From: Corynebacterium sp.
Lineage (GTDB): Bacteria > Actinomycetota > Actinomycetes > Mycobacteriales > Mycobacteriaceae
Direction of reading: 5' to 3'
Length of the DNA: 50,016 nucleotides
Assembly (NCBI RefSeq): GCF_012838985.1
Contig: NZ_DUOE01000181.1
Coordinates: 1-50,016, forward strand
The notes under the pieces were generated by a model, which saw nothing but the letters and a program-made list of their open reading frames with translations, was not told the DNA's origin and ran no database searches. Positions 37,268 to 46,733 of this stretch are shown one piece after another (the stretch's first letter is position 1; every line of letters begins with the position of its first letter). Both the position numbers and the translations under genes were made by a program.

Positions 37268-38149
37268 GTGGCAACCCGAGGAACCGGACGGACCGTCGCG
37301 GCCGTCACCGCCGTGCTGCTGGTACTCGTCATGGCCGTCGCGGTACTGCCCCGCATCAGCAGCGCCGACGACTGCGTACCCACCAGCACCCGGGAATGCG
37401 GCTGCCTCACGGAGAGCGCCGAATTCGAGGGACTGACCGCAACGGACACCAGGACCCTCTCCCCCGGGCAGATGACCTACGAGGAGCACTCCTTCCGTCA
37501 CGCCGGCACGGAGAGCACCTACCGCGTGTTCTCCCACGGCATCGACTGGGACCGGCCGGTCGGCGCCGTCGTCCGCCTGCACGGTGACGGTGCCTACGAG
37601 TACCTGTACTCCAAGCGTCTCTCCTCCTGCCTGGCAGCCGTCGCCGCCGCCCACAACCTCATCCTCGTGCAGCCCCTCACCCCCGCGGAGGACCTGACGT
37701 GGTGGACGGACCTGGAGACCAACACCGACTGGCTGGAGGCCTTCCACGACGAGGAACTCAGCGCCATGGAGGGTGTCGACCCGGACCGTGTGTGGTGGAT
37801 GGGCTACTCCGGCGGGGCGGAGATGATCAGCTACGGGCTGCTCCCCTCCGCCGGCCACGTCATCACGGGCGGGGCGATCCTGGTGGGTGGCGGCGGGGCC
37901 CCGAGCAGGAAGCGTCACAGTGTGCCGGAGGAGCGGGTCGCCGACCTGCCGTTGTACTGGGTGACCGGCCGCCACGACACGGGCGAGGACCCCCGGGAGA
38001 CCTTCGACGCCCTGACGGCGGCGACCGAAGGCGCCGACGCCTACCGGTCCCTGGGCTTCGAGGGGGTGTCCACCGACTTCTGGAGGGACGACAACCACAT
38101 CTCCATCGACCAGGTGGAGATCCTCCACTCGATCCTCCGGGAGCGCTGA
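37268..38149 (+). CDS. Secreted alpha/beta-hydrolase (esterase / PHB-depolymerase-like)
   Basis: Signal peptide-like N-terminus; nucleophile elbow 'WWMGYSGGAEM'; terminal 'DDNHISID'. Confidence 0.72.
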   Translation: MATRGTGRTVAAVTAVLLVLVMAVAVLPRISSADDCVPTSTRECGCLTESAEFEGLTATDTRTLSPGQMTYEEHSFRHAGTESTYRVFSHGIDWDRPVGAVVRLHGDGAYEYLYSKRLSSCLAAVAAAHNLILVQPLTPAEDLTWWTDLETNTDWLEAFHDEELSAMEGVDPDRVWWMGYSGGAEMISYGLLPSAGHVITGGAILVGGGGAPSRKRHSVPEERVADLPLYWVTGRHDTGEDPRETFDALTAATEGADAYRSLGFEGVSTDFWRDDNHISIDQVEILHSILRER

Positions 38150-38277
38150 GCCACCCCTGGACAGGGTGACGGCCCTTTCCTTCAGGCCCTCCGGATATCG
38201 CCCTGGTGTGGCTACGCTGGATGGTATACACAACAACTGTCGCTCGGGCAGCAGACCACACCCAGGGAGCTGTTTTC

Positions 38278-39735
38278 ATGAACCATCAACTCACAGAGCA
38301 GGGGCGCCTCACCCGGAAGCCGTGGCTGGTTGTCCCCGCCTTCGGTGCCACCGTCCTCCTTCTCGCCGGCTGCTCCCAGACGGCGGACGTCGAGGAGCAG
38401 CCGGACCCCTCACGTGAAGCCAGCGGCACGATCTCCCTGGCCCCGTCCCGGGGCGGAATCAGCGGCGGGAACCTGGTCCTGGTGGACACCGGGGACGACA
38501 CCACCGGGCCGGTCACCGCAACGTTCGGCGACTCCCCCGAGGTTGAGTGCCAGTTCGACCAGAGGTCGGCCATGCACGCCTGCACCGCCCCCGGCCACCC
38601 CACCCCCGGGACCGTGGACGTGACCCTCAGCGTCGAGGGGACGCCCCTGCCGCAGCAGCTGCCCTACACGTACACGACCAACGGCACCCAGGCCTCCCCG
38701 ATGATGGTCATCAACACCGAGACGGTGCGGGAGCGGGCCCGGGAGGTCCGTGCCATCTACCCCTACGGGGTGAAGCTCGGCGTGGTCCTGAAGAACGGCG
38801 AGCCGGTGGACGTGTTCGGACGGGTGATCAACGACGCCATCGCCCCGGACCACTTCTTCGTCCCGACCCTGGATGACGCCATTTCCCTGCGCGAAGCCGG
38901 GATCGAGGCCAACATCGCAGTGTTGTACGTGTCCCCGGTGGAGGATCTTCCCCTGCTGCTCCACTACGACATCGAGGCGGCGGCCATCGACTCCGCCTGG
39001 GCGGAGGCCGCGGAACAGGTCGTGGCGAAGAGCGGCAACGGCCCCCTGCGTGTCCACCTCTGGATCGACACTGGCATGGGCCGGGAGGGCGTCGTCCCTG
39101 ATGACGCATTCTCCGTCGCCCAGACCATCGAGAACTCCCCGCACCTGGAACTGGCCGGCATCGCCACCCACTTCAACGCCGTCACGGCAGACGACTCCGC
39201 GGCCATCGCGGCCAACGACACCACGAACCACACGGTGCTCCAGAAGACGCGTTTCGACGGCGCCGTGCAGCAGATCAGGGGCGCCGGCCTGGGGCAGAAC
39301 GCGCTCATCCATGCCGGGGCCACGGACGTCCTGGTCAACGAGATCGAGGAGCTGCACTACGACCTCATGCGGATCGGCGGCGCCTTCTTCGGTGGCTCCC
39401 TCCCCGAGGAACGCATCTACTCCTGGACCACGGAACTCACCCAGGTCAAGACCCTGCCGGAAGGCTGGTGCCTCGACTACAACTGCACCACCCCCACCGA
39501 CCGGCCGCTGCAGGTGGGTCTGGTCCACCACGTCCCCGCCCGGGAGAACGACGTGGTGTTCACCGTGCGCGGCGTCCAGGTGCCGGTCCTCCTCAACCAC
39601 GGAACGGTGGTCACCCTGGATCTGTCCGGGGTGCCGGATGCCGTCGCCGGCGACGAGGTCGAGCTGGACTTCGATCCGAAGGCCTTCTACAACCCGGACG
39701 GTTCCGCCCCCCTGCCCGTCACCACCACCGGTTAG
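38278..39735 (+). CDS. Lipoprotein with alanine-racemase-like PLP domain and N-terminal Ig-like (IPT/TIG) segment
   Basis: Lipobox 'LLLAGCSQ'; 'GVKLGVVLKNGEPVDVFGRVINDAIAPDHFFVPTLDDAISLREAGI' resembles Alr; 'IDTGMGREG', 'GIATHF'. Confidence 0.75.
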   Translation: MNHQLTEQGRLTRKPWLVVPAFGATVLLLAGCSQTADVEEQPDPSREASGTISLAPSRGGISGGNLVLVDTGDDTTGPVTATFGDSPEVECQFDQRSAMHACTAPGHPTPGTVDVTLSVEGTPLPQQLPYTYTTNGTQASPMMVINTETVRERAREVRAIYPYGVKLGVVLKNGEPVDVFGRVINDAIAPDHFFVPTLDDAISLREAGIEANIAVLYVSPVEDLPLLLHYDIEAAAIDSAWAEAAEQVVAKSGNGPLRVHLWIDTGMGREGVVPDDAFSVAQTIENSPHLELAGIATHFNAVTADDSAAIAANDTTNHTVLQKTRFDGAVQQIRGAGLGQNALIHAGATDVLVNEIEELHYDLMRIGGAFFGGSLPEERIYSWTTELTQVKTLPEGWCLDYNCTTPTDRPLQVGLVHHVPARENDVVFTVRGVQVPVLLNHGTVVTLDLSGVPDAVAGDEVELDFDPKAFYNPDGSAPLPVTTTG

Positions 39736-39893: not shown

Positions 39894-39954
39894 TTGTGTC
39901 CTGCGGCAGACGTCTGACCATCAGGTTTGCCCCTGAATCGCGTGCAGGACACAA
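39894..39954 (+). ncRNA. Candidate structured 5' leader (three-way junction) upstream of the NRPS-like gene
   Basis: Closing stem ttgtgtcctgc / gcaggacacaa (perfect 11 bp) enclosing cagacgtctg and tcagg-tttgcc-cctga hairpins. Confidence 0.4.
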
Positions 39955-39981: not shown

Positions 39982-42900
39982 ATGTCCAGATCAATCCCGC
40001 CCCCCGCATCTCTTCACCTCCGGGAACCAGGTGACTCTGACCACCCCGAACTGGCGATCTACGGAGTCATGCCGGCCTCCCCTCCGCGTACGCTCGTCGA
40101 CATCCTCCGTGCGACGATCGCCGCGCACCCCGAGGTCACCGCCATCGAGGCGGCCGACGCCGCCATCACCTACGGCGAGCTCGAGCAGCTTCTCGACGCT
40201 GAGGCGGCCCGCCTCGCCGACATCGGCGTCACCCGGGGTTCCCGGGTGGGTATCCGGGTCCCTTCAGGAACCACCGACCTCTACGTCGCCATCCTGGCCA
40301 CGATCTGGGCCGGCGCCGCCTACGTGCCCGTCGACTGGAACGACCCCGATTCCCGCGCTACCACCGTCTGGGAGGAGGCCGCCGTCGATGCCGTCTACGG
40401 GCGGGATCTGTCGCTGACCGTCATGCGCGACGATCCCCCCACCGGTGTGACACCCGCGGCCCCGGGGCTTGACGACGACGCCTGGATCATCTTCACCTCC
40501 GGCACCACCGGCAAGCCGAAGGGCGTGGCCATCAAGCACCGGTCCGCCGCCGCCTGGGTGGACGCGGAGTCCCGCATGTTCCTTCTCGACGCCCCGCTGG
40601 GCCCCCGTGACCGCGTCATGGCCGGTCTGTCCGTCGCCTTCGACGCCTCCTGCGAGGAGATGTGGCTGGCCTGGCGTTTCGGAGCCACCCTCGTCGCCGC
40701 CGACCGGGAGACCGTGCGGGCCGGCGACATACTCGGTGACTGGATCATCGAACAGGACATCACCGTCGTCTCCACCGTCCCGACCCTGGCCGCCTTCTGG
40801 CCCTCAGAGGCCTTCGACAAGGTCCGTCTGCTGATCTTCGGCGGCGAGGCCTGCCCGCAGGAACAGGTGGACAGGCTCGTGGCCGACGGCCGTGAGGTCT
40901 GGAACACGTACGGCCCCACCGAGACCACCGTCATCGTCAGTGGCCACATGATGACCACCGAGCCGCCGGTGCGGATCGGCCGGCCGATCCCCGGCTGGGA
41001 GTTGGCCGTCGTCGGCCCGGACGAGGAACCCGTCAAGTGGGGGGAGACCGGCGAACTCGTCGTCGGCGGAGTCGGGCTCGGCCGCTACCTCGACAAGGAG
41101 AAGGACGCCGAGGTCTACGCCTCCCTCCCCTCCCTCGGCTGGGAGCGCGCCTACCGCACAGGCGACCTCGTGCAGGCCGAACGGGAAGGACTCATCTTCC
41201 GCGGTCGCGCAGACGACCAGATCAAGTTCGCCGGACGTCGCCTGGAACTCGGCGAGCTCGACGACCATCTGACCGGACTCAGCGATGTCCGCGTCGGTGC
41301 CGCCGCACTCCATCAGACACCGGCGGGCTCCGACGTGCTGGTCGGCTACCTGGTTCCCGAACCGGGCATGACGATCGACCTCGCGGCTGCACGAGGCCAG
41401 CTGGCCACGACGTTGCCCGGCGGCATCGTCCCCACGCTCTGCGTCCTCGAGGAGATGCCGACCAAGACGTCCGGCAAGGTGGACCGCAAGGCCCTGCCCT
41501 GGCCTCTGCCCCGCGCGAACGAGGACTCCCCCGATCTGCCTCCGGAACTGGTCGGGCTCGCGGAACGCTGGATGGACCAGCTCGGCCCCGTCCCCCTCGC
41601 CCCGGACAGTGACTTCTTCGACATGGGCGGCAGTTCGGTCGCCATCGCCAAGCTCGCCACTGACCTGCGCCAGGATTACCCGGGCGCCAACATCGCGGAG
41701 CTCTACCTCCACCGGACCCTGGAGTCAATGTCCGACTATCTGCGCTCCCTGGAGTCGGAGACCACCGTCCGCCCCATGCCCGAACCACTGCCCTGGTTCA
41801 CCGGACCGGTCCAGGCCGCCACCGTGCTGGGGCTCTACGCCATCAACGGCCTGCGCTACATCGTCGGCGTGATGCTGGTCATCTGGGTCCTCAGTGCCGG
41901 TCTCCACGCCAGCTGGGTGAGGACTCCCGCCCTGCTCACGCTGGCTCCGCTCATCGTGGCGTGGCTCCTGCTGTTCTCCAACCGCGGCAAGTTCCTCGTG
42001 ACGGCCCTCGGAGCCCGCCTGCTCACCTGGAGACTCCGTCCGGGCAGCTACCGACGCGGCGGCATGACACATCTGCGGGTGTGGGCCGCCGAACGGCTGC
42101 TGACGCACCAGCGCCTGGATGCGGTACTGGGCACCCCGCAGATCCGGACGCTGTACCGGCTCCTGGGCAACCGCGTGGGCAAGCGCGCCGAACTCCACAG
42201 TTTCCCCCCGGTCACGGGTCTGCTCACGATCGGTGACGACGTCTCCGTCGAACCGGAGGTCGACCTGAACGGCCACTGGATCGACGGCGACAGATTCATC
42301 GTGGGCACGATCGACATCGAGGACCATGTCCGGGTGGGCACCCGCACGGTCGTCTCCCCGGACACGACCATCAGTGAAGGCGCCGAGATCCTCCCCGGCT
42401 CACACGCCTCCGGTGTCGTCGGAAGCTGGACGCTCTGGGGTGGTTCCCCCCTGCAGCCGCTGGGCGAGTCGGGTCAGAACTGGCCCCTGGAGGATGCGCA
42501 CACCGATCCCGGCGTGCACCGTCTCGGTGGCGTCACCAACCATCTCCTCCATGCCGCAGGCCTCTTCTGGATCACGCTGCTGCCCCTCCTGGCACTCGGC
42601 CCCGGTGTCGGCGTGCTGTTCACGCAGATCCGGGGAATCGAACGCTACCCCGTCCTCTTCCCGGTCCTCTACGCGTGGGTTCCGCTGACCATCCTGCTGA
42701 CCATCACCACCTGGCTCGTGCTGGTCATCACCACGGTGCGTTTCCTGTCGCTGCTCATCAGACCGGGCTACTACCCCGCGCAGAGCGCCACCGGATGGGC
42801 CCTGTGGTTCACACAGGCGCTCATGGAGCGCACCCTGACGTCCACCTACTTCATGTACGCCTCCTGGGTGACCCCCATATTCATGCGTCTGCTGGGTGCG

Positions 42901-43974
42901 CAGGTGGGCAAGGGCACGGAGATCTCCACCCTGGTCTCCATCCCGCACCTGACGCGTATCGACGACCACAGCTTCATCGCCGACCATGCCCTCCTCTCCG
43001 CACCCCGGCACCGGGACGGCTGGGTGCACGTGGGCACCACCACCGTCGGTGAAGGCAGCTTCGTCGGCAACTCAGGCATCGTCGGCCCGGACCGCGACCT
43101 GCCCCCGGAGTCCCTGGTGGCCGTCCTGTCCTCCGCGCCCTACCGTCCGCAGCGGGGCACCTCCTGGCTCGGCCGACGCCCCGTGGAGATCCCGCGGAAG
43201 AAGGTCGAGTCCGACGCGTCGAGCACGTTCGCACCGCTGCGCAGGCTGAAGATCGGCCGTGCCCTCGTCGAGACCCTGCGACTGCTGCCGGCGATCATCA
43301 CGGCCTGGCTCGATCTCGCGGTCGTCTTCGTCGGCACCGTCGTCTTCATGCACTGGTTCTACCTGGGGGAGGCGGCCAAGGGGCTGCTGATCCTCATCCT
43401 CATCTCGGGACCGCTCGTCCTGTGTGCCGGAATGATCGCCTCGCTGATCCCGGTCGTCACCAAGTGGCTGGTGGTCGGTGTGTTCCGGGCGGGTGACCGG
43501 ACCCTGTTCAGCACGTTCGTGTGGCGCAGTGAGCTCGCGGACAACTTCGTCGAACCACTCGCGGTCCCCAGCCTGGTGCGGATGAGCCTGGGCACCCCGA
43601 TGTTCAACGTGTGGGCCCGACTGATGGGCACGCGCATCGGCCGCGATGTCTGGTGCGAAACCTGGTGGCTCCCGGAGTTCGACCTCATCACCCTCGAGGA
43701 CCGCTGCACCGTCAACAGGGGCACCGTCCTCCAGACCCACCTCTTCCACGACCGGGTGATGTCCATCGAGCCCGTGGTTCTCCGACGTGGAGCCAGCCTG
43801 GGACCCAACAGTTTCCTCCTTCCGGGAGCGAGCGTCGGTGAGCGTTCCACCATCGGACCCGTCTCACTCGTCCTCCGGCAGGATTCCATCCCCTCCGACT
43901 CCGTGTGGGAGGGCAACCCGGTACAGCGCGTCACCGTGCCGTCCACTCAGACGAAAGAGGTCAGGGTGTCATGA
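39982..43974 (+). CDS. NRPS-like membrane synthetase of Pls/poly-amino-acid synthetase architecture (A-T-(TM2-LbH)x3)
   Basis: A domain 'IIFTSGTTGKPKGVAIKH', 'NTYGPTETTV', 'YRTGDL'; T domain 'DFFDMGGSSVAIAKL'; three TM pairs alternating with hexapeptide-like modules. Confidence 0.88.
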   Translation: MSRSIPPPASLHLREPGDSDHPELAIYGVMPASPPRTLVDILRATIAAHPEVTAIEAADAAITYGELEQLLDAEAARLADIGVTRGSRVGIRVPSGTTDLYVAILATIWAGAAYVPVDWNDPDSRATTVWEEAAVDAVYGRDLSLTVMRDDPPTGVTPAAPGLDDDAWIIFTSGTTGKPKGVAIKHRSAAAWVDAESRMFLLDAPLGPRDRVMAGLSVAFDASCEEMWLAWRFGATLVAADRETVRAGDILGDWIIEQDITVVSTVPTLAAFWPSEAFDKVRLLIFGGEACPQEQVDRLVADGREVWNTYGPTETTVIVSGHMMTTEPPVRIGRPIPGWELAVVGPDEEPVKWGETGELVVGGVGLGRYLDKEKDAEVYASLPSLGWERAYRTGDLVQAEREGLIFRGRADDQIKFAGRRLELGELDDHLTGLSDVRVGAAALHQTPAGSDVLVGYLVPEPGMTIDLAAARGQLATTLPGGIVPTLCVLEEMPTKTSGKVDRKALPWPLPRANEDSPDLPPELVGLAERWMDQLGPVPLAPDSDFFDMGGSSVAIAKLATDLRQDYPGANIAELYLHRTLESMSDYLRSLESETTVRPMPEPLPWFTGPVQAATVLGLYAINGLRYIVGVMLVIWVLSAGLHASWVRTPALLTLAPLIVAWLLLFSNRGKFLVTALGARLLTWRLRPGSYRRGGMTHLRVWAAERLLTHQRLDAVLGTPQIRTLYRLLGNRVGKRAELHSFPPVTGLLTIGDDVSVEPEVDLNGHWIDGDRFIVGTIDIEDHVRVGTRTVVSPDTTISEGAEILPGSHASGVVGSWTLWGGSPLQPLGESGQNWPLEDAHTDPGVHRLGGVTNHLLHAAGLFWITLLPLLALGPGVGVLFTQIRGIERYPVLFPVLYAWVPLTILLTITTWLVLVITTVRFLSLLIRPGYYPAQSATGWALWFTQALMERTLTSTYFMYASWVTPIFMRLLGAQVGKGTEISTLVSIPHLTRIDDHSFIADHALLSAPRHRDGWVHVGTTTVGEGSFVGNSGIVGPDRDLPPESLVAVLSSAPYRPQRGTSWLGRRPVEIPRKKVESDASSTFAPLRRLKIGRALVETLRLLPAIITAWLDLAVVFVGTVVFMHWFYLGEAAKGLLILILISGPLVLCAGMIASLIPVVTKWLVVGVFRAGDRTLFSTFVWRSELADNFVEPLAVPSLVRMSLGTPMFNVWARLMGTRIGRDVWCETWWLPEFDLITLEDRCTVNRGTVLQTHLFHDRVMSIEPVVLRRGASLGPNSFLLPGASVGERSTIGPVSLVLRQDSIPSDSVWEGNPVQRVTVPSTQTKEVRVS

Positions 43975-45293
43975 CCCTGGACAGTTCCTCTCCCCGCACC
44001 ACCTACGAGGGGGATCTTCCCCCCGGATTCCGCCCCCGTCCGGGCCCGCGGCCCGAGCGCAGCGTGTGGATCGGCGGCGCCGATCCGGTGGCTGACGCCC
44101 CCGAGAAGAAGACCCGCGTCATCGGCATCGACGCCGCCCGTGGTCTGGCGCTCATCGGCATGATCGCGACGCATGTCCTGCCGTCGTTCCACACGGCCAC
44201 CGGTGAGCCGACCCTGCAGTGGTCCCTGTTCGCCGGCAACGCGGCAGCCCTCTTCGCGCTGCTCGCGGGAATCTCCCTCACCATGATGACGGGCCGGACC
44301 ACCCCTCACACGGGACGTCGCTGGGTCCGGAGCGCAGTCGCGATCCTCGTCCGCGCACTGCTCATGTTCTCCGTCTTCGGGCTGGTGCTCAACGTCCTGG
44401 CGATCCCGGTGTACAACATCCTCCCCTACTACGCCCTGCTGTTCCTGCTGGCGATCCCGTTCACGCTGCTCCGACCGCTGCAGCTGCTGGTGGTGTCGAT
44501 CCTGTTCGGGGTGGGTGGCCCGGTGGCGATCTACCTGATCAACAGGAGCGTCGACTACACCGTCTTCTCCAGCCCCACCTTCACCGACCTCAGCGCTGAT
44601 CCCGCAGGTGTGATGCTCAGTCTGTTCTCGGGCGGAGCCTTCCCGGTGCTCACCTGGATGACCTTCATCTGTCTCGGCCTCATGCTGGGGCGGATGGGTC
44701 TGGAGAGGCTCTCCGTCCAGATCCAGCTGGCGGCCTCCGGTGTGATCCTCATGGTCGCCTCGAGCGCCCTGTCCGGATTCCTCCTCAACGCAGGTGGAGG
44801 CTGGCAGCAGATCATGGCCTCCAACCCCGCCATGACCACCGAGGACGCCTTCGACATCTCCGTGTACGGAACGCCGGCGGGCAGCTTCCAGTTCTCCCCC
44901 ACGACGTGGTGGTGGCTGGCGGTCGACGGGCCCCACACCAACACGCCGCTCTCGATCGGGTACAGCGCCGGTGTCGCCCTGCTCATCCTCGGCGGTGCTC
45001 TCCTGGTGAGCCGGGTGTGGGCGGACATGCTCACCCCTCTCATCGCGGCCGGCAGCATGACCCTGACGATGTACACGGCGCACCTGGTCTTCATCACCTT
45101 CGTCGACACGACGACCCTCCCGATGCTCTGGTTCGTCATCCAGATCGGCTTCGCCCTGCTCTTCGCCACCATCTGGAAGATGAGTGTGGGACGTGGACCG
45201 TTCGAGGGCTTCGTCGCCCGGGTCTCCAAGTGGACTGCGGGACTGCTGGTCCCCGGACAGGAATCCCCGGGTAAACACCGCTCGGATTCCTGA
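43971..45293 (+). CDS. DUF418 / heparan-alpha-glucosaminide acetyltransferase-like polytopic membrane protein
   Basis: 'RVIGIDAARGLALIGMIATHVLP'; about 10 TM; ATGA overlap with the NRPS stop. Confidence 0.8.
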   Translation: MTLDSSSPRTTYEGDLPPGFRPRPGPRPERSVWIGGADPVADAPEKKTRVIGIDAARGLALIGMIATHVLPSFHTATGEPTLQWSLFAGNAAALFALLAGISLTMMTGRTTPHTGRRWVRSAVAILVRALLMFSVFGLVLNVLAIPVYNILPYYALLFLLAIPFTLLRPLQLLVVSILFGVGGPVAIYLINRSVDYTVFSSPTFTDLSADPAGVMLSLFSGGAFPVLTWMTFICLGLMLGRMGLERLSVQIQLAASGVILMVASSALSGFLLNAGGGWQQIMASNPAMTTEDAFDISVYGTPAGSFQFSPTTWWWLAVDGPHTNTPLSIGYSAGVALLILGGALLVSRVWADMLTPLIAAGSMTLTMYTAHLVFITFVDTTTLPMLWFVIQIGFALLFATIWKMSVGRGPFEGFVARVSKWTAGLLVPGQESPGKHRSDS

Positions 45294-45368: not shown

Positions 45369-46733
45369 GTGACTCATCCGATACTGACCCCACACCCCCG
45401 CGAACAGGTGACCCCTAAGGCGCTCATCGTCTGGGTGACCGCCGTGATGGTGTACGTCGTCGCCATCACGGGGCGCACCTCCTTCGGTGTCGCCTCCGTC
45501 GACGCGATCGACCGGTTCGGTGTCGACGCCTCCCGCATCGCCGTCTTCACCGCCGTCCAGATCGGCGTCTACGCCTTCGCGCAGATCCCCGTCGGCATGC
45601 TCATCGACCGCTTCGGCCCCCGCCGACTGCTCGTCGCCGGCGCCCTCGTCATGGCCACGGGGCAGGTGCTCCTCGGATTCACCAGTTCCTACTGGGTGGC
45701 CATCGGCGCCCGTGTGCTCATCGGTGCCGGTGACGCGACCGCCTTCCTGTCGGTCATGCGCATCCTCCCCTACTGGTTCCCGCTGAAGAAGACGCCGCTG
45801 TTCACCCAGATGACCGCGGCGATCGGCCAGACCGGCCAGTTCCTCTCCGCCGTGCCCTTCCTCGCGCTGCTCCACGGCCCCGGCTGGACCACCGCCTTCC
45901 TCTCCCTCGGCGCCACCGGAGTCCTCATCGCCATCGCCGCAGGCGTGGCGGTGGCGGACTCCCCGGAGACCTGGGCGGCGTCGAAAAGCACGGCGGACCC
46001 GGATGACGTCCGTGAGAAGCAGGCCCCGCCGCCGAAGATCCCCATCGGCACCCTGCTGCTCACCGTGATGAAGGAGCCGTTGTGCTGGCAGGGCTTCTTC
46101 AACCACTACTCAGCGATGCTCCTGCAGATCGTGTTCACGCTGCTGTGGAGCGCGCCGATCATCACCCTCGGCATGGGACTGGAGCCGTCCGCCATCGGTG
46201 TGATCCTGACGATCAACGTCGTCGCGTCGATCTTCGCCGGCCCGATCCTGGGGCCGATCTCCGCACGACTGGGACGCAACCGTGTCCTCGCGTCGATCAC
46301 GTTCTCGGGATTCATCGGCCTGGCGTGGATCATCTTCTTCCTGCCGGAGGAGCCGCGCGGCCTCACGGCGATCATCATCGTCAACATCATCATGGCGCTG
46401 TTCACCCCCTCCTCGAACTTCGGTTTCGACGACATCCGCGAGGACCTCGACCGCCGCATCGTCGCCACCGCCACCGGCATGTCCAACATGGGCGGATTCT
46501 TCGCCGGCATGATCGCCGCCCAGCTGGTCGGTGTCCTCCTCGACCACTCCTCGCAGGGCGCGGCCTACACGTGGGCCGACTTCCGCTTCGCCTGGTGGGC
46601 CGTCATCGTCACCTGGGCCATCGGCATGGCCGGGCTGATCACCTTCCGGATCATCGTCGCCCGCCGACGCCGTGAACAGGCGGCGTCCGGCCGCGGAACC
46701 GTCCGCATCGTGGACACCTCCGAGGGAGAATAA
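45369..46733 (+). CDS. MFS transporter
   Basis: About 12 TM; 'PVGMLIDRFGPRRLLVAGALVMATGQ'. Confidence 0.9.
   Translation: MTHPILTPHPREQVTPKALIVWVTAVMVYVVAITGRTSFGVASVDAIDRFGVDASRIAVFTAVQIGVYAFAQIPVGMLIDRFGPRRLLVAGALVMATGQVLLGFTSSYWVAIGARVLIGAGDATAFLSVMRILPYWFPLKKTPLFTQMTAAIGQTGQFLSAVPFLALLHGPGWTTAFLSLGATGVLIAIAAGVAVADSPETWAASKSTADPDDVREKQAPPPKIPIGTLLLTVMKEPLCWQGFFNHYSAMLLQIVFTLLWSAPIITLGMGLEPSAIGVILTINVVASIFAGPILGPISARLGRNRVLASITFSGFIGLAWIIFFLPEEPRGLTAIIIVNIIMALFTPSSNFGFDDIREDLDRRIVATATGMSNMGGFFAGMIAAQLVGVLLDHSSQGAAYTWADFRFAWWAVIVTWAIGMAGLITFRIIVARRRREQAASGRGTVRIVDTSEGE

Follow-up and report, generated by a model that had tools for sequence, protein, structure and literature searches.

The 50,016-nt stretch of Corynebacterium DNA analysed here (hereafter the window) encodes a membrane-bound synthetase, pls-B, that belongs to a second clade of Pls enzymes (class B) absent from the literature found; the experimentally proven Corynebacterium enzyme and the window gene are not orthologues. 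It is followed directly by the gene of a transmembrane acyltransferase. The best explanation of the whole, to which we assign a probability of about 0.55, is a lysine isopeptide polymer synthetase whose product is capped or neutralised by this acyltransferase. The domains, the lysine code, the clade, the invariable link to the acyltransferase and the catalytic triad of a hydrolase nearby are observed; the product, acyl donor, acceptor and purpose are what we infer.

Two Pls clades in Corynebacterium

Pls-like genes were already known from Corynebacterium: Jiang et al. 2021 (PMC8117764) detected Pls in 10 of 12 isolates of the genus, described the pls-pldII operon and proved, with S. coelicolor as host, that the enzyme of C. 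variabile makes epsilon-poly-L-lysine (epsilon-PL); later genome papers label such clusters NAPAA/epsilon-PL. The original prediction recognized the family, but missed both this publication and the position of the window gene in a second clade with an acyltransferase.

Among 201 Corynebacterium genomes (one per species, some fragmented), most hold a Pls copy ∼45% identical to the pls-B protein, and 31 hold a copy that is at least 55% identical (class B). The window's own genome carries a second Pls of the canonical clade on another contig (C19), 46% identical to the pls-B protein. The primer used for cloning C. variabile pls in PMC8117764 has an exact match in one genome, at the beginning of a pls copy with 46% identity, and therefore the proven C. 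variabile enzyme (canonical clade, about 44–46% identical) is not the orthologue of pls-B, although both share genus, family and a lysine code. The genome with this match falls into the same genus as the window, which identifies that genus as Corynebacterium.

The original prediction had proposed a phylogeny against Pls. In a tree of 68 sequences (rooted by midpoint alone rather than by a PosA or poly-Dap outgroup), pls-B does not group with experimentally proven Pls; class B and the canonical group are split with an SH-aLRT of 100. Class B consists of the window gene, sequences from other Corynebacterium, Kocuria, Arthrobacter, Nesterenkonia, Citricoccus, Zafaria and Paeniglutamicibacter; the canonical group holds Streptomyces (i.e. 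the Streptomyces-type full-length Pls), Kitasatospora, Mycobacterium, Nocardia, C. variabile and the common Corynebacterium copy. The C-terminal part of pls-B is only 37–38% identical to canonical coryneform Pls. Within class B, the Corynebacterium sequences nest beside Kocuria, which suggests horizontal transfer.

Epsilon-PL is used industrially to preserve food, and reports describe its synthetases as widespread among the corynebacteria of skin and cheese. Surveys that score every Pls match as epsilon-PL appear to lump two different systems.

In the relatives examined, the C19-type Pls has neither pldII nor the acyltransferase adjacent, and in the single relative scanned for it (L142) a MarR-type regulator lies directly upstream. 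A similar upstream gene accompanies the common Corynebacterium Pls at loci L004, L142, L153 and L155; this pls is also often preceded by a small rhodanese-like gene and lacks an adjoining pldII.

Domain organization of pls-B

The pls-B gene is a single ORF of 1330 aa on the + strand (39982..43974), exactly where it had been predicted, with a coding-type third-position GC of 0.87. From 5' to 3' on that strand, it encodes (i) an A domain (about 40108–41517; Pfam AMP-binding, aa 43–366), (ii) a T domain (41557–41742; PP-binding, aa 526–587) with its Ser in GGSS and (iii) a six-TM/C1–C3 region (41812–43923; Hexapep, aa 1265–1293). Residues 611–1314 match the NCBIfam model TIGR02353 'Pls/PosA family NRPS' with 550 bits (cut-off 423 bits), and hydropathy reveals hydrophobic pairs at ∼615–669, 854–930 and 1098–1170, which give six TM helices. 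The protein thus has an A-T-(TM pair + C domain) ×3 layout with the TIGR02353 terminal domain, and the Pfam search found no condensation or thioesterase domain in it. These results agree with the original prediction, which had described adenylation and thiolation (GGSS) domains, three TM pairs and the lack of condensation and thioesterase domains.

The top PDB match of the pls-B protein is 7wew, the crystallised A domain of Streptomyces albulus epsilon-poly-L-lysine synthase, to which its own A domain is 57% identical. The S. albulus Pls has the same domain order and six TM helices, lacks C/TE domains and differs in its pocket code by one Val/Ile change. C-domain residues are common to class B and the canonical clade (in C3, 37 near-invariant positions including QTHLF/DR), so condensation by pls-B is probably intact. 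As a membrane-bound single-module synthetase, pls-B would activate L-lysine in its A domain and hold it as a thioester on the T domain, while the three C domains between the TM pairs would link lysines via the epsilon-amine and export the chain, as in Streptomyces Pls.

The partner acyltransferase

The stop codon of pls-B overlaps (ATGA) the start of a gene for a 440-aa membrane acyltransferase of the HGSNAT/Acyl_transf_3 superfamily (43971..45293, + strand), and the two genes are probably translationally coupled because of this overlap. Pfam gives an HGSNAT_cat match of 55.3 bits (cut-off 22) and, alongside it, a weaker Acyl_transf_3 match. Since a profile search of PDB sequences returned no match for the acyltransferase, we turned to fold comparison: the predicted model (pLDDT 87) matches human HGSNAT, a lysosomal transmembrane N-acetyltransferase, with a Foldseek probability of 1.00, a distant match with a TM-score of ∼0.5 and ∼13% identity. 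HGSNAT transfers acetyl from cytosolic acetyl-CoA to an amine on the opposite side of the membrane. Arg57 and His68 are invariant in the acyltransferase, consistent with a predicted CoA-to-amine acetyl transfer across the membrane.

The acyltransferase gene adjoins pls-B in the window, at each of 25 further loci from Corynebacterium and at the Micrococcaceae loci examined, where it follows a dapA-type gene in several cases and is divergent in L047 (neighbouring genes at all loci were called with a simple ORF script). By contrast, at other actinobacterial Pls loci it is adjacent in none of 67, while pldII is nearby in 62 of them. No pldII lies beside pls-B in the window, where the acyltransferase holds the place that pldII has in the published operons of S. 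albulus and C. variabile; at loci L043 and L047, a pldII homologue is found 3.4–3.8 kb downstream, past the class-B genes. A PldII-like M1 peptidase is encoded elsewhere in the window's genome, unlinked to pls-B, so degradation-based protection may coexist.

Genome-wide, the acyltransferase is present in all 31 class-B Corynebacterium genomes and in 3 of the 170 others (Fisher p ∼2e-33, a value that ignores shared ancestry and rests on genome counts taken by hand from two tables). Two of these three contain a broken or partial pls-B adjoining the acyltransferase; pls-B is dispensable in some genomes, because it is broken there. G088 contains an orphan acyltransferase gene, as does a second contig of G154. 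Our search of the open-access literature found no paper linking the acyltransferase to Pls, though a subscription paper could exist.

From the modelled fold, we infer that the acyltransferase acylates the polymer. It would take an acyl group (acetyl from the acetyl-CoA of the cytosol is the simplest case) through the membrane and place it on polymer amines, and acylation at the outer face would cap or neutralise the polymer as a form of tailoring or self-protection. The enzyme would then fill the position that the degrading peptidase PldII has beside canonical Pls, which suggests that an antimicrobial-type polymer of class B is made or disarmed in another way. If the acyltransferase does modify the polymer, class-B bacteria either make a cationic homopolymer not yet described or have a new route of self-protection.

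The acyltransferase superfamily also includes O-acyltransferases, and given the TM-score of ∼0.5 the acceptor could instead be a glycan or lipid. The strongest alternative, to which we would give roughly one chance in four, is accordingly that pls-B is a plain epsilon-PL synthetase, its polymer left untouched, and that the acyltransferase modifies the envelope for producer protection. It would fit the lysine code conserved in class B and the Acyl_transf_3 match, as enzymes of that type in the superfamily modify envelope glycans. However, the best fold matches are to HGSNAT, an N-acetyltransferase, and the tie between the acyltransferase and pls-B holds both in Corynebacterium, with its mycolate envelope, and in Micrococcaceae, which are without mycolates. 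A shared polymer target therefore fits better than a shared envelope target.

Probable lysine specificity

The pocket code of pls-B, aligned to 7wew with columns placed by hand from core motifs, reads DAESIGTVIK, as had been predicted. This is the lysine code DAESIGTVVK, found in the canonical clade (including the C19 Pls), with one conservative change at position 331. Class-B codes are DAESIGT[V/I]IK or DAESIGSVIK, with Ile at position 331, in every sequence but L043 (DAESIGTVVK). A published structural study of PosA (PMC10522769) reported that Ala at code position 2 accompanies Lys and that Glu contacts the side-chain amine, and gave DMEHNGTVSK for PosA (Orn) and DGESISVVNK for a beta-lysine enzyme. 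In five Micrococcaceae, a gene of the dihydrodipicolinate-synthase (DHDPS) family lies immediately 3' of class-B pls. This family belongs to the lysine pathway, but also contains other aldolases. The dapA-type gene after pls-B points to lysine, which the code, the structural paper and this linkage together make a well-supported substrate of class B.

A basic amino acid other than L-lysine (ornithine, Dab, Dap or beta-lysine) is an unlikely substrate of class B. Such a substrate could account for the separation of class B from the clade of proven lysine enzymes, the low identity of its C-terminal part to canonical coryneform Pls and the almost constant Ile 331. Against it, the Ala at code position 2 is kept, unlike in the beta-lysine enzyme and in PosA, the delta-poly-L-ornithine synthetase of Acinetobacter baumannii that shares family and architecture with pls-B, and DHDPS-family genes adjoin pls-B in Micrococcaceae.

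Taken with TIGR02353, the 7wew match and the dapA-type neighbours, the code supports the part of the original prediction that assigned pls-B as a Pls-like, lysine-type isopeptide polymer synthetase. The same product as Pls should not be assumed, because class B is a separate clade and has its own acyltransferase partner.

The alpha/beta-hydrolase

Upstream of pls-B, the window encodes a membrane-anchored or secreted alpha/beta-hydrolase of 293 aa (37268..38149, + strand) without Pfam or NCBIfam matches. Its Ser154-Asp210-His250 triad is invariant, and its esterase/S9-type fold suits an esterase, amidase or peptidase. The hydrolase is near pls-B at 15 of 26 Corynebacterium loci and also in Kocuria, lies directly 3' of the acyltransferase in three genomes and is missing near ∼40% of the Corynebacterium class-B loci. 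A secreted hydrolase of this kind may release the product, remove its acyl groups or contribute to its turnover.

Together, pls-B and its partners could form an undescribed system of two or three genes: a lysine isopeptide polymer would receive N-acyl groups across the membrane during its emergence, and a dedicated secreted hydrolase would process it later. This is a tentative proposal to which we give somewhat less than even odds. If true, it would represent either a new acylated or 'masked' epsilon-PL or a new self-immunity to epsilon-PL. The product is unlikely to be a short lysine oligomer bound to an acyl group (a lipopeptide or a conjugate linked to the envelope) in place of a long free polymer: the constant acyltransferase, the frequent hydrolase and the more divergent C-terminal region of pls-B, where the linkers may set Pls chain length, would allow it, but the condensing-domain residues are those common to long-chain enzymes. 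The 'short amidated product' of the original prediction finds no support in our data.

Possible gene decay, probable duplication and other features of the locus

Decay or errors of assembly may have altered some class-B copies. In the nearest relative (G019), the acyltransferase gene is split across two frames (L116, 10027–11310), while pls-B is split or frameshifted, with its neighbours still in place, at L159, L160, L166 and L167 (G150, G103, G012 and G100, respectively), possibly due to decay or assembly error. Genome G085 has two class-B pls genes with identical scores (C1:55817–59722 and C1:141722–145627), each with its own acyltransferase, ∼86 kb apart and oppositely oriented; the pair probably arose by recent duplication. 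Locus L044 of Paeniglutamicibacter antarcticus combines a canonical-type pls with a nearby class-B pls on the other strand; a dapA-type gene and the acyltransferase come after the class-B copy.

Two other neighbours were considered as members of the system. Between the hydrolase and pls-B (38206..39735, + strand) lies an unusual exported racemase-like protein, with a lipoprotein-like signal and then an alanine-racemase N-terminal domain. It raised the idea of D-lysine but, as only the nearest relative shares it at this position, it is probably a bystander. The same probably applies to a downstream MFS transporter (45369..46733, + strand), considered as an exporter, which only the closest relatives have in the vicinity of class-B pls.

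The pls-B leader contains a perfect 11-bp inverted repeat (39894..39954, + strand; arms TTGTGTCCTGC/GCAGGACACAA) that ends 27 bp 5' of the start codon, with a fold z-score of −1.9. A search of the leader against Rfam found no lysine riboswitch or other RNA. The repeat is possibly a regulatory hairpin; in the sister species (L116), the block TAAAATACATGACATAGAAAG upstream of it is unchanged and its arms are retained in part.
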